A DNA stretch of 64,000 nt from Gordonia sp. PDNC005. Lineage in GTDB: Bacteria; Actinomycetota; Actinomycetes; Mycobacteriales; Mycobacteriaceae. Shown piece by piece: positions 37,973 to 54,778 of the stretch. The notes beneath the pieces are model-generated. The model was not told the origin of the DNA. It saw only the letters and a program-made list of their open reading frames with translations, and did no database searches. Both the position numbers and the translations under genes were made by a program. Location of the stretch: assembly GCF_016919385.1 (NCBI RefSeq), contig NZ_CP070351.1, forward strand, positions 3,596,001 through 3,660,000, in the 5' to 3' direction. The stretch's first letter is position 1; each line of letters opens with the position of its first letter.

Positions 37973-38598
37973 TCGCCGAGGACGACACCCTGCTCAGGGA
38001 GGGGCTAGCGCTGTTGTTGCGGAGCGAGGGTTTCGACGTCGTCGCGGCCGTCGACACCGGCGAGGCGTTCCTCGGCATGCTCGACGACGCCGACGCCGCT
38101 GTTCTCGACGTACGGATGCCTCCGACGTTCACCGTCGAAGGACTCGAGGCAGCTCGTGAGGCGCGGCGACGCCGGCCAGGATTCCCCGTGCTCGTGCTGT
38201 CGGCGTACGTCGAGGACAGGTACGCCGGACAACTCGTCGCCGAGGGCGCCGACGGCCTGGGATACCTGCTGAAGGAACGCGTGGGCGACGTCGCCGCATT
38301 TGTCGACGCACTCCGCCGAGTGGCTGCGGGCGGCACGGTGATGGACCCGGAAGTGGTGTCTCAGCTGATGAGCAGGAGGGCGACCGGCGATCCGGTGCGA
38401 GCGCTGACCCCGCGGGAACGCGAAGTCCTCGGTCTCATGGCCGAAGGACTCGACAACCAGACGATCGCCGAGCGTCTGGTTGTGAGCGACACGGCTGTCA
38501 GCAAGCACATCGGCAACATCTTCGCCAAGCTCGGTCTGTCCCCGTCCGACGGAGGGCACCGGCGAGTGTTGGCCGTGCTCGCGTACCTGCAGGACTGA
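37960..38598 (+). CDS. LuxR/NarL-type response regulator
   Basis: A 212-residue response regulator. The receiver domain has AEDDTLLREGL, the phospho-acceptor Asp50 in AVLDVRMPP, and a KER Lys. The LuxR-type helix-turn-helix is LTPREREVLGLMAEGLDN, then SDTAVSKHIGNIFAKLGL. It starts inside the kinase gene and is its likely partner. Its stop abuts the converging TPR gene stop at 38599 with no spacer. Probable target: the divergent ABC transporter. Confidence 0.91.
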   Translation: MRIVIAEDDTLLREGLALLLRSEGFDVVAAVDTGEAFLGMLDDADAAVLDVRMPPTFTVEGLEAAREARRRRPGFPVLVLSAYVEDRYAGQLVAEGADGLGYLLKERVGDVAAFVDALRRVAAGGTVMDPEVVSQLMSRRATGDPVRALTPREREVLGLMAEGLDNQTIAERLVVSDTAVSKHIGNIFAKLGLSPSDGGHRRVLAVLAYLQD

Positions 38599-41433
38599 TC
38601 AGCCGGGAAACTCCAACTCGCTGAGCAGATCGAGCAGCGCCGGGTGGTCGGGTGCATGACGCAACGCCTCCTGCACGAGGGCGAGGGCGTCTGCGGTCAG
38701 GCCGTCCTCGGCGGCTATGGTCGCGGAGAGGTGCAGAACCGGGATCAACAGGCCGATCCAGTTTGCGGCCCGGGCGCGTGCCGCCACGTCCAGGAGCAGC
38801 GCGCTGGAACGCTCCGGGTCGGACACCCGCACGATGTCGGCTCGCGCGAAGTCGAGGCGGGCTCGTTCGAAGTCGACGGGTGCTCCCGTCGCCAACTCTT
38901 CGTATGCCTGGTCGGCACGCGCGAGATAGGCATCCGCGCCGTCGTGGTCACCCGCGAAGTACGCCGTCAGTGCGGCCGTGCGCAGGCAGTCCGCCGCGTC
39001 GAATCCCGCACCTGACTCCGAGTACCAGGTGACGGCGGCATCGAGGTCGGCGAGAGCTTCGGGGAACTGCTGCTGGTCGGCGTGCTCGACGGCCCGCGCG
39101 GCGTGGAGCTGCGCCTGAACCACCGGTGGCACATGGTCGGTGTACGCGTCGATCACCCGGGTGTACGACTCCACCGAATCGCCGGAGCGTCCCGCAGCCG
39201 ACTGCGCGCGTGCCAAGACCTGCATGCCCTGCATCTGTGCGCCGATGTCGCCGCGCGTCTCCATCGTCGCCACCGCCGACTCCACGAGTTCGATCACAGC
39301 GAGCGGGTCCTCCTCACGCATCAGCATGATGTGCCCGAGGTCGAAACGCGCGATGTCGGCGGCCCCATCGTCGCCTTCGACCATCCACACCGCAAGAGCC
39401 CGCTCGGCGTCGTCCCGTGCTACGTCGACGTCGTCGAGGTCGAGCCGCAGCGCCGATCGTGACGCCAGGACCTCGGCCAACAACGAGTACCGTGCAACGG
39501 TCTCCGCCTCACCGAGCAGGAGGAGCGCGGCAGCGCCGTCCGTCCGCGCAGCCACCCCGGCCGCAAGCTGGAGCGCCCCGACGAGTTCCGATCGATACAG
39601 CAAAGCCTGGTCGGCGTCGCTCGCGAGGTCCGCGGCGCGCCGAGCCGCCACCAGCGCGGCATCCACCTCGCGCGACGGGTCGAAACCGTCGGATCCGCGG
39701 GCGAGTTCACCGAGCACGTCCACCCTCAGGCGGTGCAGCGCGGATCGGGAGGCCGCCGCGTCGGCGTCCACCGAACCTGTCGCCGCGAGTGCCTCCGGAT
39801 CGTCCAGGAGGGGAATCTCCCCGGCGTCCACCCGGTCGAGCACTGCCAGGCCCTCGTCGACAGCCGCGAGCGCGCGGGTCGGGTCGAACGGGGCGAGAGC
39901 CATGCCGAGGAGCCGTGCGAAGTTCGCACGTGCGCCCGCGCTCCATTCCGGATCCGCGTCGCGCCAACCGACGAGCAGGTCGGGCGACGCTCCGCCGCTG
40001 TGCACCTCGAGCAGTGCCGCGAGCAGGTCCGACTGCGCTGACCACGCCGGGTAGCCCGACCGGCTCGAGTCTGCCGCGGCGCGGAGTTCCTCAACGGCCC
40101 CATGCGGATCGGTACGGCGGCGATCCCAGGCCAACATGTGCCGCGCTCGGATGCGAGTCCGGCCGGACAATTCCTCGACCCGCGGCCGCAACGCGTCCGC
40201 ACACTGTTCTGCTCGGCGCGGTGATGAGGACGCGAACGCCGAGAGGCCAGACACCAGCTCCGCCGCCGTCCGGTTCGCGATCGGCTTCACCCGAGCGTCG
40301 GCCTTGGTCTGCAGGGCGGTGGTCGAACGGACTGCCAGTACCTCTTCGAGCGCCGACGACACGGCGTCCGACGCGTTGCGCACGTCGAACCGACCCGCCG
40401 TCACCCGGACGTAGTCGGCGAGTTCGGCGGCCACCTGCGACGCGGCGACCGGCCCGGGCACCCCGTCCTCGTCGCGTCGAACGACGACGGTGTCGGCGTC
40501 GCTGTCCGCGGCCGAAGCGAAGGTCGCCGACAGGGCCGCGGCGAGTTGTGCCGCCGACAGGGGGTTCGGGCACTGGTCGACGACGTCCGCATGCCGGAGA
40601 GCCATCGGCAGCGCATCGGCGAGCGCGTCGACCCGCAGGAGTGCGACCATCGCGTGAGCGATGTGCCCGTACAGGTGAACCGGGCCGTACGTCTCCTCCA
40701 GCGACCGCGCCGCCCTGATCACGTCGTCACGACGTCCGGCGCGACCCCACGCCTCGATCAGCGCGCCGTACGTCTCCGCCGGATAGAAGCCGCACCGTTC
40801 CGCCGGATCTCCGTCGAGGTCGGGAGTCGACAGCGCCTCGGCCTGCGCGTACGCACCCGCCGCGACGTAGACCGCACCCACGGTCGCACGCGTTCCCGGC
40901 CCGCAGGTCCCGGCGGGCGGACGATAGTCGACACATTCGTCGAGAATCCGGATCGCGTCGTCCGACCGGCCCTGATGGACCGCGATGTCCGCGTGCACGG
41001 CCGCTTCCACGGCGGGCGCGTAGTACACCGTCCCCTTGACTCTCCTCGACCAGTCGTCGGTGATGCCGCGGATCTGCTCCAGGGACAACTCGGGGATTCC
41101 GGTGAGCGAGTCGAGGAGGTCGACGACGGTCGTCTGGAACTGCTCCACCTGCCAGTCGTCCAACTCGAAGTCGGCGCCGTGGGCGTCCTGCGTCCGGTAC
41201 AACCAGGCGACGAGTGTGAGCACATCGGTGGTCCGGCCCGCCCAGAGCGCGGAGTACGCGCCCTCGAGTCGCGTGAGCACCCGCAGGTCGAGGTCGCCGG
41301 TCTCGTCGGCCCGCGCGATCAGCGACGGGAACGGACCGAAGTCCTCGTGCCCGAAACGCGGGTCGCCGTGCCGCGCCATCCAGAGGTCGTCGAGGATCTC
41401 ACCGATCGCCGGGTTGATGTGCGGGCCGCTCAT
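38599..41433 (-). CDS. Large tetratricopeptide-repeat protein, partner of the Hsp90-like protein
   Basis: A 944-residue soluble, Ala-rich helical protein. The second half shows recurring TPR-type helix pairs (for example AIRILDECVDYRPP near 158 and ALADLDAAVTWYSESG near 805); the carboxy tail ends ALVQEALRHAPDHPALLDLL. No enzymatic motif or signal peptide is seen. It starts within the Hsp90-like stop (ATGA overlap), so the two are translated in a coupled way. In eukaryotes TPR proteins are Hsp90 co-chaperones; by analogy it may be a client adaptor or effector. Function in bacteria is unknown. Confidence 0.78.
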   Translation of the reverse strand: MSGPHINPAIGEILDDLWMARHGDPRFGHEDFGPFPSLIARADETGDLDLRVLTRLEGAYSALWAGRTTDVLTLVAWLYRTQDAHGADFELDDWQVEQFQTTVVDLLDSLTGIPELSLEQIRGITDDWSRRVKGTVYYAPAVEAAVHADIAVHQGRSDDAIRILDECVDYRPPAGTCGPGTRATVGAVYVAAGAYAQAEALSTPDLDGDPAERCGFYPAETYGALIEAWGRAGRRDDVIRAARSLEETYGPVHLYGHIAHAMVALLRVDALADALPMALRHADVVDQCPNPLSAAQLAAALSATFASAADSDADTVVVRRDEDGVPGPVAASQVAAELADYVRVTAGRFDVRNASDAVSSALEEVLAVRSTTALQTKADARVKPIANRTAAELVSGLSAFASSSPRRAEQCADALRPRVEELSGRTRIRARHMLAWDRRRTDPHGAVEELRAAADSSRSGYPAWSAQSDLLAALLEVHSGGASPDLLVGWRDADPEWSAGARANFARLLGMALAPFDPTRALAAVDEGLAVLDRVDAGEIPLLDDPEALAATGSVDADAAASRSALHRLRVDVLGELARGSDGFDPSREVDAALVAARRAADLASDADQALLYRSELVGALQLAAGVAARTDGAAALLLLGEAETVARYSLLAEVLASRSALRLDLDDVDVARDDAERALAVWMVEGDDGAADIARFDLGHIMLMREEDPLAVIELVESAVATMETRGDIGAQMQGMQVLARAQSAAGRSGDSVESYTRVIDAYTDHVPPVVQAQLHAARAVEHADQQQFPEALADLDAAVTWYSESGAGFDAADCLRTAALTAYFAGDHDGADAYLARADQAYEELATGAPVDFERARLDFARADIVRVSDPERSSALLLDVAARARAANWIGLLIPVLHLSATIAAEDGLTADALALVQEALRHAPDHPALLDLLSELEFPG

Positions 41434-43202
41434 TCCACGTCTCCCTCGATGCTGTCCCGGGTCGCGAGATCGGCGAGCAGGGTGATCGCCGAGTCGAGTT
41501 CGGACGCGGCAGCCACCCGCACCGACCGACGGGCGCGGAGCATCGCCTGGCTGTAGATCACTCGGATGAGAGCTCCGGCGACAACGTCGTCACCCAGGGT
41601 CGGGAGACGTTTCACCAGGGCGTTGGTCGCGTTGAGGACCAGAACCGGCCGCGTCGGCGGGACGTCGCCGTCGTCGAGCGCTGCCAACGCGGCCAGCCAC
41701 GCGTCCGGTTCACCCGCGGCCTCCGACAGCATCTCGGTCCGATCTTGTGCGATGCGCGCCGAGTCGTCGGTCAGCAGCAGCGCGGACACTCCGTCGGGCT
41801 CGAACTCTCGCAGGCTCACCTCGCAGTCGAAAGGCGAGACCGCACGTCGAGCGAGGTGGACGGCCGCGTCGAACTCCGCGCGCAGTTCCGCGCTCGGCGT
41901 CGACAATGCGGACAGCAGAAACTGTTGCCCGATGGGTTCGCACTGCAGCTGCGGGTCTGCGGCGATCAACGCTCGGATGACGGCGGTCTCGAAAGCGTGC
42001 CCTGCGTTGACCAGGCCGATTCCCCGCCCGGCGAGGATGTCGGCGAGCACCCGGTAGTCGTCGACGCTGCCCGCATACCGGATCGTGTCGAAGCGGGCGC
42101 GGAACGTGGCCAGTGGCATCGGACCGACGTTGGTGTCGAAGACGCAGTGCTTGTCGACGAAGCCCAGCAGTTCCGGCCGGTGAGCGGCGAGGGCTTTGAC
42201 TCCCTGCTCGTGCACGTTGAGGAACCGTTCCCGCACCACCGGACGCGACCCGAGGCCCGTCAGCCACCCGGAGATCTGCTCACCGAGCGACACCGACACG
42301 GCCTCGAACAGGTCGTCACGGACCAGTCCTTCCCGCGACGCCGTCGGCTTCAGTCCGGTCGAGTCGACGACGAGCCGCACGAAGTACGCCCATTCCGGGA
42401 CCAGGGCGGGGACGTCACCGACCAGGAGGCCCTTCACGTACACACGATGAGTGGCCCTGGCGACGAGGTCACCACCGCTCGGCCGCACGAACGCGACGCC
42501 GCGCATACCGGCTTCGGGGACGTCGACGTCGAACATCTCCAACGGTGTGAAGCCGAGTTCGTCCTGGCTGAACGCGACACGCGCGGCGTCTCGGCCGCCG
42601 GACGGGCCCCCGAACAGGCCGGGACCTTCGTTGACGCGCTCGCCGTTGACCAGTACCGGGGTCGGATGCATGGCGGTGTACTCGGCGGCGAGGGCCCGGA
42701 CCTTCTCCGGCGCGAGCCATGAGCGAGTGTCCGGGCGGGCGGTGATGCGGACAGTGGTTCCGGTGGCCTTGCGGTCGCCGGGTGTGAGTTCAACCTCGCC
42801 CGTTGATGTACCGGTCCAGACGACGGCGTCGGCGTCGTCCGCGCGGGAGGTGACTTCGATGCGGTCGCCGACGAGGAATCCGCTGAGGAGACCAACACCG
42901 AACTGGCCGATCTGAGAGGTCGATCCGAACCCGAACGGGTCGCGCTTGGAGCTGGCGCCGATGGTCCCGAGCAGACGCGCGATGGTGTCGCCAGTCATGC
43001 CGACCCCCTGGTCGGCGATCTCGAAGACTGATCCGTCCGCCGTGATCTCGATCGGCGCATCCGACCGATCAGCCTCCGACTGCGCGTCGATCGCATTCTG
43101 GAGCAACTCACGGACGTACACGCCCGGCCCCGTGTAGAGATTGGTCCCGAGCACGTCGATCAACGCACTCAGATCGACGTCGAACACACTGGCGTCATCC
43201 AT
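41430..43202 (-). CDS. Hsp90/HtpG-family ATPase, divergent member
   Basis: A 590-residue protein with an intact Hsp90-type GHKL ATPase domain: RELLQNAIDA with Glu32 and Asn36, IADQGVGM with Asp64 and Gly66/Gly68, GQFGVGLLSGFL (99-110) and GTTVRI. The middle domain follows; the carboxy-terminal region is not like canonical HtpG and the MEEVD motif is absent, as in bacteria. Length is slightly below HtpG (~620-640). It is probably not the housekeeping HtpG but the actinobacterial 'HSP90 family' relative. It is coupled to the TPR gene and preceded by a structured region. Confidence 0.85.
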   Translation of the reverse strand: MDDASVFDVDLSALIDVLGTNLYTGPGVYVRELLQNAIDAQSEADRSDAPIEITADGSVFEIADQGVGMTGDTIARLLGTIGASSKRDPFGFGSTSQIGQFGVGLLSGFLVGDRIEVTSRADDADAVVWTGTSTGEVELTPGDRKATGTTVRITARPDTRSWLAPEKVRALAAEYTAMHPTPVLVNGERVNEGPGLFGGPSGGRDAARVAFSQDELGFTPLEMFDVDVPEAGMRGVAFVRPSGGDLVARATHRVYVKGLLVGDVPALVPEWAYFVRLVVDSTGLKPTASREGLVRDDLFEAVSVSLGEQISGWLTGLGSRPVVRERFLNVHEQGVKALAAHRPELLGFVDKHCVFDTNVGPMPLATFRARFDTIRYAGSVDDYRVLADILAGRGIGLVNAGHAFETAVIRALIAADPQLQCEPIGQQFLLSALSTPSAELRAEFDAAVHLARRAVSPFDCEVSLREFEPDGVSALLLTDDSARIAQDRTEMLSEAAGEPDAWLAALAALDDGDVPPTRPVLVLNATNALVKRLPTLGDDVVAGALIRVIYSQAMLRARRSVRVAAASELDSAITLLADLATRDSIEGDVE

Positions 43203-43383: not shown

Positions 43384-43420
43384 GATCGCCCCGCGAACCG
43401 AAGTGGTTCGCGGGGCGATC
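43384..43420 (-). terminator. Intrinsic terminator after pntB
   Basis: A perfect 16-bp stem (43384-43399 with 43405-43420) with a 5-nt loop, 16 bp beyond the pntB stop. TTTT follows the stem on the minus strand, making it the most canonical intrinsic terminator in the window. Confidence 0.88.
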
Positions 43421-43435
43421 GTGGTGAAGCGACTC

Positions 43436-44875
43436 TTACAGAGCGGAGATGATGTCTTCCACTCGGTCCTTCGCGTCACCGAACAGCATCTGCGTGTTCT
43501 CGCGGAAGAACAGCGGGTTCTGGACACCGGCGTAACCGGCGGCCATCGAACGCTTGAACACGATGACGTCCTTGGCGTTCCAGACCTCGAGGACCGGCAT
43601 GCCCGCGATCGGCGAGCTCGGATCCTCCGACGCCGCCGGGTTCACCGTGTCGTTGGCGCCGATGACCAGCACGACGTCGGTCTCCGGGAAGTCGTCGTTG
43701 ATCTCGTCCATTTCCAGAACGACGTCGTACGGCACCTTCGCCTCGGCGAGCAGCACGTTCATGTGGCCGGGCAGACGGCCGGCGACAGGGTGGATGCCGA
43801 AGCGGACGTCGACGCCCTTCGCGCGCAGTTTGGCGGTCAGATCGGCCACCGGGTACTGCGCCTGTGCGACGGCCATGCCGTAACCCGGCGTGATCACGAC
43901 GGACGATGCGCCTGCGAGGAGCTCGGCGGCGGCGTCGGCCTGGATCTCGCGGTGTTCGCCGTAGTCCTTGTCCTCGGCCGGGCCGGCTTCGATGCCGAAG
44001 CCGCCTGCGATGACGGAGATGAACGAGCGGTTCATCGCCTTGCACATGATGTACGACAGGTACGCACCCGAGGAGCCGACGAGCGCACCGGTGACGATCA
44101 GCAGATCGTTGCTGAGCAGGAAGCCCGACGCGGCCGCGGCCCAACCGGAGTACGAGTTGAGCATCGACACGACGACCGGCATGTCGCCGCCGCCGATCGA
44201 GGCCACCAGGTGCCAACCGAGGAACAGCGCGAGCGCGGTGATGACCGCGAGCAGGACGTAACCGGTGGTGTCGTCCTTGGCGTCACGCGCCACGTAGATG
44301 CCGGTCAGCACTGCGAACACGACGATCGAACCGACGTTGATGAAGTTCTTGCCGGGCAGCATCAGCGGCGACGACTTGATCTTCGCCGACAGTTTCAGGT
44401 TGGCGACGATCGAACCGGTGAAGGTCACGGCGCCGATGAAGATGCCGATCGCGACCTCTGCGGCGTGGATACCCGTGAGGGCGCCCGCATCATCGGGGTT
44501 GACACCCTCGAGGTGAGCGCCGGTGATGGCGCCGTTCCAGCCGATGAGGACGGCGGCGAGACCGACGAACGAGTGCAGGAGAGCTATGAGCTCGGGCATG
44601 CCCGTCATCTCGACGATCTTCGCTCGCCAGAGGCCGATCAGGGCGCCGATGACAACGGCGCCGCCCATCAGGCCGATGGAGATCCACTTGCCGTCGAGAT
44701 CGGTCATGTTGTCGACGGCGAGGGCGATCGTCGCGATGATCGCGACGGCCATGCCGACCATGCCGTACGTGAGGCCGCTCTTGGCGGACTCGTGCTTGCT
44801 CAATCCGGCCAGCGACAGGATGAACAGGAGCGACGCGACGATGTACGCCGCAACAGTGATCGAATTGATGTCCAT
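43436..44875 (-). CDS. pntB: NAD(P) transhydrogenase subunit beta
   Basis: A 479-residue subunit of the proton-translocating transhydrogenase, which uses the proton gradient to make NADPH from NADH. About eight to nine amino-terminal transmembrane segments carry [10 protein letters not shown] and [26 protein letters not shown] (a 26-residue region near 245-270). The carboxy-terminal NADP-binding domain has [32 protein letters not shown] and ANDTVNPAA. It starts 5 bp after pntA and ends at a strong terminator. Confidence 0.95.
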
Positions 44876-44880
44876 GGACG

Positions 44881-46413
44881 TCAGGCCCCCTTGCTGAACA
44901 TGGCGAGCATGCGTCGGGTCACTGCAAAGCCGCCGAAGATGTTGATGGAGGCGAGCAGGATCGCGATCGCGGAGAGCACGCGAATCGTGGTGTCTTCGGT
45001 GGCGATCTGCAACAGCGCGCCGACCACGACAACGCCGGAGATGGCGTTGGTGACCGACATCAGCGGCGTGTGCAGCGCGTGTGCGACCTTGCCGATGACG
45101 TAGTAGCCGATGACGATCGCCAGCATGAGCACCGTGAAGTGCTGCGGGATCGGATCGGGCGCGACGGCGACGACGAGGCCGTACAGGACGATGCCGGCAA
45201 GGACGAGGGCGACCTTCTTGCCGGCCGACATCGGAGCCTTGGGCTCGGCGACCGGCGCGGGCTCGGCCGCGGCGGCCTTCGGAGCTGCGGACACCTGGAC
45301 GGGCGGCGGCGGCCACATGCCTTCGCCGTCACGCGTCACCGTGATGCCGCGCTGGACGATGTCGTCCATGTCGAGCGTCAGCTCACCGTCCTTCGACGGG
45401 GTGAGGAGCTTGAGCAGGTTGACGATGTTGGTGCCGTACAACTGCGACGTCTGAGCGGCCAGCCGGCCTGCCAGGTCGGTGTAGCCGAGGATCGTGACGC
45501 CACCGTCGGTGACGACCTTCTCGTCGGTGACCGTGCCTGCGGCATTGCCGCCGTTGGCGGCCGCCATGTCGACGATCACGGACCCGTGCTTCATGCCCGC
45601 GACGGTCTCCGGCGAGAGGAGCTTGGGAGCCGGACGGCCGGGGATCAGCGCTGTCGTGATGACGATGTCGGCGGCACGCGCCTCCTCGTCGTACATCGAC
45701 GCGGTGGCGGCCTCCTGCTCGGCGGTCATCTCCTTGGCGTAGCCGTCTTCAGACTTCTCCGCCTCGAATTCGACGTGCACGAACTCCGCGCCCATCGACT
45801 CGACCTGCTCGGCGACCTCGGGACGCACGTCGAACGCACGAACCACGGCGCCCATCGCGGACGCGGCGCCGATCGCGGCCAGACCGGCCACACCGGCGCC
45901 GACCACGAACACCCGAGCGGGCGGGATCTTGCCGGCTGCGGTCACCTGACCGGTGAACATCCGGCCGAACTCGTGTGCCGCCTCGACGACGGCGCGGTAG
46001 CCCGCGACGTTCGCCATCGACGACAACACGTCCATGGACTGCGCGCGCGAGATGCGCGGGACAGCATCCATGGCGAGCGCGGTGACGCCTGCGTTCGTCA
46101 GCTTCTCAACGAGTTCGGGGTTGCGCGCCGGGGCCATCATCGAGATCAGCACTGCGCCGCGGCGCATGCGAGCGATCTCGGCGTCGGTCGGAGCGTTCAC
46201 CTTGACGACCACGTCGGCGGCCCACACGTCGTCGGTCGAACCGACTCGTGCGCCCGCCTCGGTGAACGCCGCGTCGGGCTGTTCCGAGAGCGAACCCGCA
46301 CCGGCCTCGACGAGGACGTCGTATCCGAGCTGCTGCAGCTGGCCGACCGTCTTCGCGGTCGCAGCGACGAGCGTCTCGCCTGTCTTGGACTCCTGAGGGA
46401 TGCCGATCAGCAT
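44881..46413 (-). CDS. pntA: NAD(P) transhydrogenase subunit alpha (fused PntAA-PntAB)
   Basis: A 510-residue alpha subunit. The amino-terminal NAD-binding domain spans ~1-380 with IGIPQESK at the start, [18 protein letters not shown] (near 168-185) and [11 protein letters not shown] Pro/Ala-rich linker follows, then a membrane part of four helices (near 420-510). In some mycobacteria these two parts are separate genes; here they are fused. AGGAG before ATG 46413 sets the start. It is the first gene of a two-gene operon with pntB. Confidence 0.95.
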
Positions 46414-46676
46414 GTCGATGCCTCTCCTGCATTCATATCTGTTGTTCTCACCTTGATCTGATCGCCGCATCAGACAAGATCGACGGGCACAAGGTACAGG
46501 TCAACGCCAGGAGCTCCCGCTCCGGAGAACGGTTCCATAGTGACCGGCAAGTGCTTCATCGAACTCGCGCGATGCTGCAGGAAACGTGGGGTAACCCGCA
46601 TGATGGAAAACGTGGGACGAACTTAGCACGGGGTAAGAATCACCCAAGAGTGCCTGTAAGTCAGATCACAGCACTG

Positions 46677-53410: not shown

Positions 53411-54778
53411 GTGACGACCGTCGAACCCGATCCGGACTCTGGCCGAGGCGCCCTGCCCGCCGTGTCGCCGATCAGCGAAGTCGGCCGTTTCACGTCGACT
53501 TCCGTACATGCGGCGGCCGGAGTGGGGCGGCTCGCCGTCGGCGCCGTCGGCGGACTCCTCCGTGGTCGGACGCCCGGCGCGGCGGATGTGGCCCGCGAGG
53601 TCCGACGCACCTTCGAGCACCTCGGCCCCACCTACGTGAAGCTCGGGCAGCTGATCGCGTCCAGCCCCGGAGTCTTCGGCCCGACGCTCTCGGGCGAGTT
53701 CGAGAGTCTCCTCGACCAGGTGCGCCCCCTCGACTTCTCCCAGGTCAAGGCCCTCTTCGTCGAAGACCTCGGAGCTGCGCCCGACGAGGTGTTCGCGACG
53801 TTCGACGAGACGCCGATCGCGTCGGCGTCCATCGCGCAAGTCCACACCGCGACGCTGCACAGCGGCGACGAGGTGGTCGTGAAGATCCAGCGGCCCGGCA
53901 TCGCCGACCGCCTCGCACCCGACGTCGCGATTCTCGAACGCCTCGCCGGTCTCGTCGAGATCTCCGAGTACGGCCGCATGCTGTCGGCACGCCACGTCGT
54001 CGAGGACTTCGCCGACGGTCTCGGCGCCGAACTCGACTTCCGCAACGAGGCCGCGACGATGGCCGAGTGGTTCGAGTGCCTGCAACCCGGGCCCTTTGGA
54101 GACCGCGTCCGCGTCCCGCGTGTCTACCCCGAACTGACGACCCGCCGTGTCATGACGATGGAACGGATCTACGCCACTCGTATCGACGACGCCGCGGCAG
54201 TCCGCGCGGCAGGTCACGACGGTGAGGCGCTGGTCCGCAACCTGCTGCTGTCGCTGCTCGACTCGGCGTTCCACGGCGGGCTCTTCCACGGCGACCTGCA
54301 CGCGGGCAACGTGCTCGTCGACGACGACGGCAAGCTCGTCCTCCTCGACTTCGGCATCGTCGGACGATTCGACGCCCGCACGCGCCGCATCCTCCGCCAA
54401 CTTGTCGTGGACTTGATCGTGAAACAGGACTACGACTCCGCGGGCCGCGCCATCTTTCTGCTCGGTGCGGTCCACAACCCCGGTTCGACGTCGAAGGGCG
54501 GCGACGACCTGCGCAAGGTCACCTCGCCGCTGTCGACCACCGAACTCGGTTCGATGAGCTACACCGACCTCGGCAGGCAGCTCGCGGCCGTCGCGAAGGC
54601 GCACGACGCGCGGTTGCCGCGCGAGCTCGTGCTCGTCGGGAAGCAACTGCTCTACGTTGAGAAGTACATGAAGCTGCTCGCGCCTCGATGGAAGGCGATC
54701 AGCGACCGAGAGATCTACGGCTACATGGCCGGGATCATGAAGGAAGCCGAACGTGATCGAAGGAGCCGTCTGAAATGA
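53411..54778 (+). CDS. ABC1/UbiB-family kinase-like protein
   Basis: A 455-residue UbiB/AarF-type atypical kinase. The family-specific KLGQLIASSPG (extending the KxGQ motif) precedes ASIAQVH, the ATP-anchoring Lys158 in VVKIQRPG, and the catalytic HGDLHAGNVLV (from His293) with LDFGIVG. These proteins control quinone or lipid synthesis. A GTG start is used. It overlaps the DUF3068 gene by 4 bp, so a role in envelope lipid or mycolate physiology is inferred from position. Confidence 0.88.
   Translation: MTTVEPDPDSGRGALPAVSPISEVGRFTSTSVHAAAGVGRLAVGAVGGLLRGRTPGAADVAREVRRTFEHLGPTYVKLGQLIASSPGVFGPTLSGEFESLLDQVRPLDFSQVKALFVEDLGAAPDEVFATFDETPIASASIAQVHTATLHSGDEVVVKIQRPGIADRLAPDVAILERLAGLVEISEYGRMLSARHVVEDFADGLGAELDFRNEAATMAEWFECLQPGPFGDRVRVPRVYPELTTRRVMTMERIYATRIDDAAAVRAAGHDGEALVRNLLLSLLDSAFHGGLFHGDLHAGNVLVDDDGKLVLLDFGIVGRFDARTRRILRQLVVDLIVKQDYDSAGRAIFLLGAVHNPGSTSKGGDDLRKVTSPLSTTELGSMSYTDLGRQLAAVAKAHDARLPRELVLVGKQLLYVEKYMKLLAPRWKAISDREIYGYMAGIMKEAERDRRSRLK

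Follow-up and report, generated by a model that had tools for sequence, protein, structure and literature searches.

The question raised by this locus is whether some bacterial Hsp90s operate with a helper protein of their own. The window analyzed here, a stretch of 64,000 nucleotides from Gordonia sp. PDNC005, belongs to a genome assembled as a 4.26-Mb single contig. It carries on its minus strand an Hsp90-family gene (41430..43202; 590 aa) that runs into the gene for a 944-aa TPR protein (38599..41433), the stop of the first and the start of the second sharing the four bases ATGA (41430..41433), as can be seen directly in the sequence. An earlier sequence-only reading had described this arrangement, an Hsp90-family ATPase with GHKL motifs overlapping a 944-residue TPR protein, and our analysis confirms it. 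That reading also called the ATPase divergent and the pair little described, which is fair, although the Hsp90 half is already a named NCBI family.

Specifically, the 590-residue protein scores 486.2 bits against the NCBIfam entry NF010683 (PRK14083, ‘HSP90 family protein’), for which the cut-off is 455, and only 123.9 against the HtpG equivalog NF003555, for which it is 371. By sequence classification it is a PRK14083-type, non-housekeeping Hsp90 and not HtpG; a canonical htpG is found at a separate site of the same genome (G000:C1:1854215). An htpG-type match is present in 58 of 59 Gordonia genomes and a PRK14083-type protein above the cut-off in 10 of the 59, and the latter is therefore accessory within the genus. 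The predicted fold shows the complete N-M-C architecture, with approximate boundaries, chosen from alignments, that place the N-terminal ATPase domain at 42618-43202, the middle domain at 41928-42617 and the C-terminal domain at 41430-41927 (all minus strand). The residues of a GHKL-type Bergerat fold are present as E32, N36, D64, G66, G99/G102/G104 and R290, and all of these are common to the 10 aligned Hsp90s, one of which is HtpG. By correspondence to yeast numbering, they represent the Glu general base, the Asn, the Asp of DxG, the glycine lid and the middle-domain Arg. In the same alignment T150 is not conserved in the Listeria and gammaproteobacterial proteins, and position 294 is Val in the window Hsp90 and Gln in HtpG and five of the eight others. 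The Hsp90 cycle involves ATP-driven N-terminal closure and an Arg of the middle domain; given this established knowledge and the conserved residues, the 590-residue protein is likely to run an ATPase cycle.

Two further candidates concerning the Hsp90 itself were rejected. An apparent Hsp90–TPR gene fusion (G272, with the Hsp90 inside a 1634-aa frame) has an extra part with no Pfam match and a partner in a separate ORF. The geldanamycin-resistant HtpG of Streptomyces hygroscopicus, for which a passage of PMC3603443 reports E88G, was considered as a PRK14083-type member, and E88G found no match, all 13 PRK14083-type Streptomyces sequences in the alignment having Asp.

The partner is modeled by AlphaFold with a mean pLDDT of 91.7 as a superhelix of helix-turn-helix repeats, the hallmark of the TPR superfamily. 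Structure matches liken residues 456–944 to the TPR superhelices of LGN and OGT and barely cover the N-terminal half; by sequence, no solved chain was matched at E 1. Searches of NCBIfam, PADLOC and PHROGs returned zero matches to the 944-residue protein; the PRK14083 entry covers the Hsp90 half alone, and an enzymatic effector domain was looked for in the partner and not found. Alignment divides the protein into a conserved N-terminal core of about 360 residues (40354..41433, minus strand) and a divergent repeat array of residues ~361–944 (38602..40353, minus strand), a composition that is usual among actinobacterial partners. Across 30 aligned sequences D350, R352 and N353 of the core are invariant or nearly so, and three cysteine columns are kept in 27, 25 and 27 sequences, the middle one being absent from the window partner. 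Median cross-genus identity over 72 loci is 61, 57 and 51% for the Hsp90 N, M and C domains, 36.4% for the core and 22.6% for the fast-evolving array.

With respect to conservation, the sequence-only reading had pointed to a dedicated pair and asked whether it is conserved as a unit distinct from housekeeping htpG, and this is supported. Neither outcome that it named as refuting was observed: the pair extends well past close relatives, and the genome has its canonical htpG in addition. Among named actinobacterial loci, for which the best 80 of at least 546 encoding stretches in a scan of named genomes were used, the partner follows the Hsp90 in 80 of 80. When the in-frame start nearest –4 is chosen, the TPR gene begins less than 200 bases from the Hsp90 stop in 73 of these loci, and the overlap is exactly –4 in 54 of the 73. 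The remaining seven still carry the core downstream; in six (L020, L025, L055, L061, L063 and L067) a contig end cuts the partner, and in L021 the partner is split over two frames. Within a class sample of 296 genomes, 36 genomes hold an Hsp90 above the cut-off (41 copies) and 38 hold the core (44 copies). The core is the next gene downstream on the same strand for 40 of the 41 Hsp90 copies, and 40 of the 44 cores occupy that position. By genome, 35 have both, one the Hsp90 only, three the core only and 257 neither, which gives a Fisher p of 8e-41, a figure that ignores the kinship of the sampled genomes and is not a true probability. All 30 of the class-sample Hsp90 loci listed carry the core. 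As a control, the core was sought beyond htpG and was found at none of 21 htpG-type loci (813–933 bases beyond the stop), in contrast to 10 of 10 pair loci (1431–1506 bases beyond the stop).

The two genes are also duplicated together. In five of five two-copy genomes, all from one genus (g23), a partner accompanies each of the ten Hsp90 copies, one partner being split into two ORFs, and in the two genomes that contribute two loci each to the set of 80, the Hsp90 at every locus agrees with its TPR protein in nearest relative. The mirror-tree correlation is 0.864 for 72 pairs (the 73 with assigned starts less L023, whose 424-aa partner continues in another frame), compared with a maximum of 0.167 in 200 shuffles, and partly reflects shared species history; Hsp90 and partner have the same nearest neighbor in 52 of the 72. 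Within 10 kb on either side of the 80 loci no other family recurs widely, the next most widespread being found at scattered positions in 8 of 28 genus labels. For this count some flanks were shorter, frames overlapping the pair were excluded and families in at least four labels were listed; labels were assigned by hand, one standing for unnamed Micromonosporaceae MAGs, one for an Actinomycetales MAG, and Amorphoplanes and Paractinoplanes being lumped into Actinoplanes.

Beyond the actinobacteria, the pairing was seen in two organisms of the Bacillota. A Paenibacillus Hsp90 gene of this type shares an ATGA overlap with the gene for a 353-aa protein made up of the core alone, and in Listeria the Hsp90 (799 bits) precedes a pair of core proteins, 324 and 320 aa long. 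The window core is homologous to these stand-alone Bacillota partners of 320–353 aa. A core profile built from 73 actinobacterial partners matches the window protein at 2e-70, the Paenibacillus protein at 1.6e-61 and the two Listeria proteins at 1e-55 and 1.9e-55. From gene order we take lmo0941 to be the Listeria partner. In the Listeria record (L208:5980-10607) the two tandem cores are 72% identical and are followed by an SMI1/KNR4 protein; the record is labeled a plasmid, and its gene order looks chromosomal. Two actinomycete loci (L256 and L257) show the Listeria arrangement of an Hsp90 and then two tandem matches to the core. A core-only partner of 380 aa, with no significant array match nearby, also occurs within Gordonia (G051), where it was observed (L148:9838-10980) to share a GTGA overlap with a PRK14083 Hsp90 of non-Gordonia type. 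Because core-only partners exist in Paenibacillus, Listeria and this Gordonia genome, the core is, judging from these alignments, the minimal partner and the array its elaboration; the core would then be ancestral to the form with core and array.

The core is nonetheless not exclusive to Hsp90. Four class-sample cores lack an adjacent Hsp90, two of them (G153 and G252) being associated with YbjN and two (G147 and G350) with neither. In the former two the core gene overlaps that of a YbjN-domain protein (PF10722, E 8.7e-26 and 6.9e-28) and its product bears a second YbjN domain at its own C terminus (E 5.5e-17 and 1.2e-17). An order sample contained 83 genomes positive for the core; twenty of their loci, picked mostly for unusual frame length and thus not a random draw, comprised eight with the YbjN arrangement, eight with Hsp90 and four with neither; one of the eight with Hsp90 (G859; L255:3374-8986) has a single-strand YbjN–YbjN–Hsp90–core array. 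In all, ten loci (L230:5532-7609, L231:4939-7019, L242–L248 and L251) have the core operonic with and fused to YbjN in place of Hsp90, and an Actinomyces oris core with no adjacent Hsp90 comes after two YbjN matches. YbjN, whose fold resembles secretion chaperones, was not matched by a profile from six sequences in the flanks examined at 120 other loci. Orphan cores with neither gene alongside were observed at L232:3802-7014 and L233:5873-8755, the latter after a frame that by eye looks like a MerR-like regulator.

Taken together, the protein domains and the pairing lead us to favor, as the probable explanation, an obligate Hsp90–TPR complex, with the core docked on Hsp90, the array recruiting clients and Hsp90 acting on them. 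The PRK14083-type Hsp90 would function as a dimer driven by ATP, and the partner as its dedicated co-chaperone or adaptor. The helical core of about 360 residues may dock at a surface of the Hsp90 that is not an EEVD tail, the long, fast-evolving array would capture and present particular client proteins, and the Hsp90 cycle would then mature or remodel them; in the cell, the ATGA overlap may couple translation of the two genes. The slower evolution of the core and the faster evolution of the array would fit docking and client roles, respectively. Gene pairing alone is no proof of a complex, and it is from such genomic evidence that we infer a physical one.

The likeness to eukaryotic systems such as Sti1/Hop and Cpr6 lies in the proposed work of an Hsp90 with a helical TPR partner. 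According to a passage of PMC4428384, the TPR protein Cpr6 binds a C-terminal MEEVD motif. Eukaryotic Hsp90 docks its TPR proteins through this EEVD tail, whereas EEVD is absent from the last 40 residues of PRK14083-type Hsp90s in all 80 tails (again the best 80 of at least 546 stretches). The analogy drawn in the sequence-only reading is not supported in this respect; the missing motif argues against the standard eukaryotic docking, yet a TPR co-chaperone that docks otherwise would be compatible with it. Other Hsp90s have been portrayed as working alone: E. coli HtpG is called a stand-alone machine with no known co-chaperones in part of PMC4428384, the 21 htpG-type control loci lack the TPR partner, and mitochondrial TRAP1 is described in a passage of PMC9312948 as lacking co-chaperones, unlike the partnered PRK14083 Hsp90 proposed here.

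Pairs of a related kind, with an Hsp90-like gene directly before a helical-repeat partner, occur in the gammaproteobacteria. In E. coli, Salmonella, Xanthomonas and P. aeruginosa (L215:9001-13144, L213:4962-9109, L214:4947-9170 and L216:7881-12122) the second gene encodes 764–774 aa, and the P. aeruginosa pair is, from gene order, presumably PA1068–PA1069. The pair is present in 245 of 5426 complete E. coli genomes, and in the one record examined it lies between fdhD and yiiG rather than among defense genes. These partners are mutually homologous (38–77% identity), and those of Salmonella and Xanthomonas give weak TPR matches; none of the four convincingly matches the core (E 0.008 to 1.5). 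The two Hsp90s scored also differ from that of the window in falling below the PRK14083 cut-off (Salmonella 286 and Xanthomonas 277 bits). In PMC4053335 PA1069 is mentioned as affected by high calcium and as apparently forming an operon with an Hsp90; PMC5541441 names it among genes changed on adhesion, and PMC13411936 includes it in a list of interactions. A further genome from the same family as Gordonia (G205; L151:8593-11369) has a divergent Hsp90 whose gene overlaps, again by ATGA, that of a 297-aa TPR protein with no significant core match. On a Pseudanabaena plasmid (L218:14219-19801) we observed an 877-aa Hsp90-like protein adjoining a TIR gene, with a TPR gene near; its C terminus has a sub-cut-off TIR match (CAP12/Pycsar TIR, E 0.001). 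A broader proposal is that bacteria have Hsp90 co-chaperone systems of their own, in which non-canonical Hsp90s are generally paired with a helical-repeat partner of at least three types with no detectable shared core (the Actinomycetota/Bacillota core, the ~770-aa gammaproteobacterial protein and the short G205 protein), the core being a portable client adaptor that takes its power from Hsp90 or is instead coupled to YbjN domains. We offer it tentatively, as somewhat short of an even chance.

In eukaryotes Hsp90 matures or restrains NLR receptors, and the TPR protein could, by analogy, be a client or effector that the Hsp90 matures or restrains, its array sensing stress or an invader. The array does evolve in a sensor-like manner (22.6% identity versus 51–61% in the Hsp90 domains), the distant Pseudanabaena Hsp90 has its TIR match with TIR and TPR genes close by, and Listeria lmo0941 is reported, in a passage of PMC6901971, to be under selection with no function assigned. 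We nevertheless consider such a role unlikely, given that the window partner lacks a recognizable effector domain, that core-only partners dispense with the array and that nothing recurs widely beside the pair. PADLOC-DB 2023, moreover, gave only weak matches confined to the Hsp90 ATPase domain (TmtA and type II REase models) and none for the window, Bacillota or gammaproteobacterial partners. The defense system raised by the sequence-only reading found no support, PADLOC runs on the pair, the distant pairs and ten window ORFs, together with the open-access PMC literature, having yielded nothing specific.

Less probable still is that the Hsp90 serves as a general chaperone for protein stress, induced as part of the heat-shock regulon, and that the TPR protein only tunes its activity. 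The Hsp90 fold and ATPase residues would suit it, and a second Hsp90 was not found at E 1e-20 in 25 of the 36 PRK14083 genomes of the class sample (a sub-cut-off second match being present in the other 11), so that the PRK14083 protein may stand in for HtpG there. In addition, lmo0942 appears among Listeria heat-resistance genes in part of PMC10393277. On the other hand, CIRCE and HAIR are not enriched ahead of the Hsp90 match at the 80 loci (~350 bases scanned at each) and fare worse than simple shuffles, which leaves heat-shock control, one form of the stress system suggested by the sequence-only reading, unsupported. Of two sigma-type patterns scanned in these regions, an ECF-like one occurs at up to one mismatch in 25 of 80 loci, compared with 7.6 in shuffles. 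Partial accounts also list htpG SCO7516, a candidate PRK14083 type, as downregulated in acid shock (PMC2631018) and the gammaproteobacterial analogue PA1069 as down about four-fold at heat shock (PMC4957987). Finally, that the operon and overlap serve only co-expression of two proteins acting in one pathway with no mutual binding is very unlikely: compact bacterial operons often contain genes that overlap, 19 of the 73 assigned starts lie elsewhere than at –4 and the neighbor differs in a few genomes, but strict pairing, co-duplication, conservation from Bacillota to Actinomycetota and the lack of any other recurrent companion argue against it.

The surroundings of the Gordonia pair are consistent with the remark of the sequence-only reading that no neighbor reveals the client, as no client was identified. 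A plus-strand response-regulator frame ends at 38598, one base before the TPR stop. Upstream of the Hsp90 lies pntAB (window 43436-46470), with an intrinsic-terminator-like stem-loop in the pntB–Hsp90 interval (43384..43420, minus strand; 16 pairs then TTTT, fold z-score –6.35). The pair lies within ~1.2 kb after pntB in eight Gordonia genomes with a close pntB and was not matched in the 1.5 kb examined in 13 others, and in G011 (L142, whose matches are identical to those of G. desulfuricans, L004) a divergent pntAB of 38–43% identity is upstream. A functional link was rejected, as pntB is found in 59 of 59 Gordonia genomes versus 10 of 59 for the PRK14083 Hsp90, does not recur beside the pair elsewhere and is separated from it by the terminator; the proximity is probably inherited synteny. 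Elsewhere in the window (53411-54778) an ABC1 atypical kinase with weak PADLOC PD-T4-6 matches precedes a PorA-like protein.

In terms of distribution, a phylum sample of 296 genomes yielded 10 above the PRK14083 cut-off, all from the same class. Protein homologue searches reach relatives that share exact words. Among 72,556 plasmid records the 944-residue window partner has no match, the Paenibacillus core matches seven, and the Hsp90 is at least 80% covered in six, several of them chromosome-sized; the pair itself is present on a mobilizable plasmid of Streptomyces globosus. One phage record, an unverified contig, also covers at least 80% of the Hsp90. An Hsp90–core pair was observed at L211:1915-6488 on a 6.6-kb record from feces, unverified and labeled ‘Bacteriophage sp.’, and the PHROGs families phrog_32952 and phrog_34905, both with no assigned function, match the window Hsp90 and the Paenibacillus core, respectively. 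The pair can thus reside on plasmids, and these records gave no sign of predominant mobility.

As a system, the pair was not found described in searches of open-access PMC full text. The recurrence of this pair of genes in other bacteria suggests that certain bacterial Hsp90s may rely on a helper of their own, of a type familiar mainly from eukaryotes. Little is known about which clients bacterial Hsp90s serve, and a partner found beside 40 of 41 sampled Hsp90 copies provides a handle for finding them. The pair also lets one ask whether TPR regulation of Hsp90 arose more than once, and its presence in Streptomyces, along with what may be an analogue in certain E. coli strains, makes that question directly testable.
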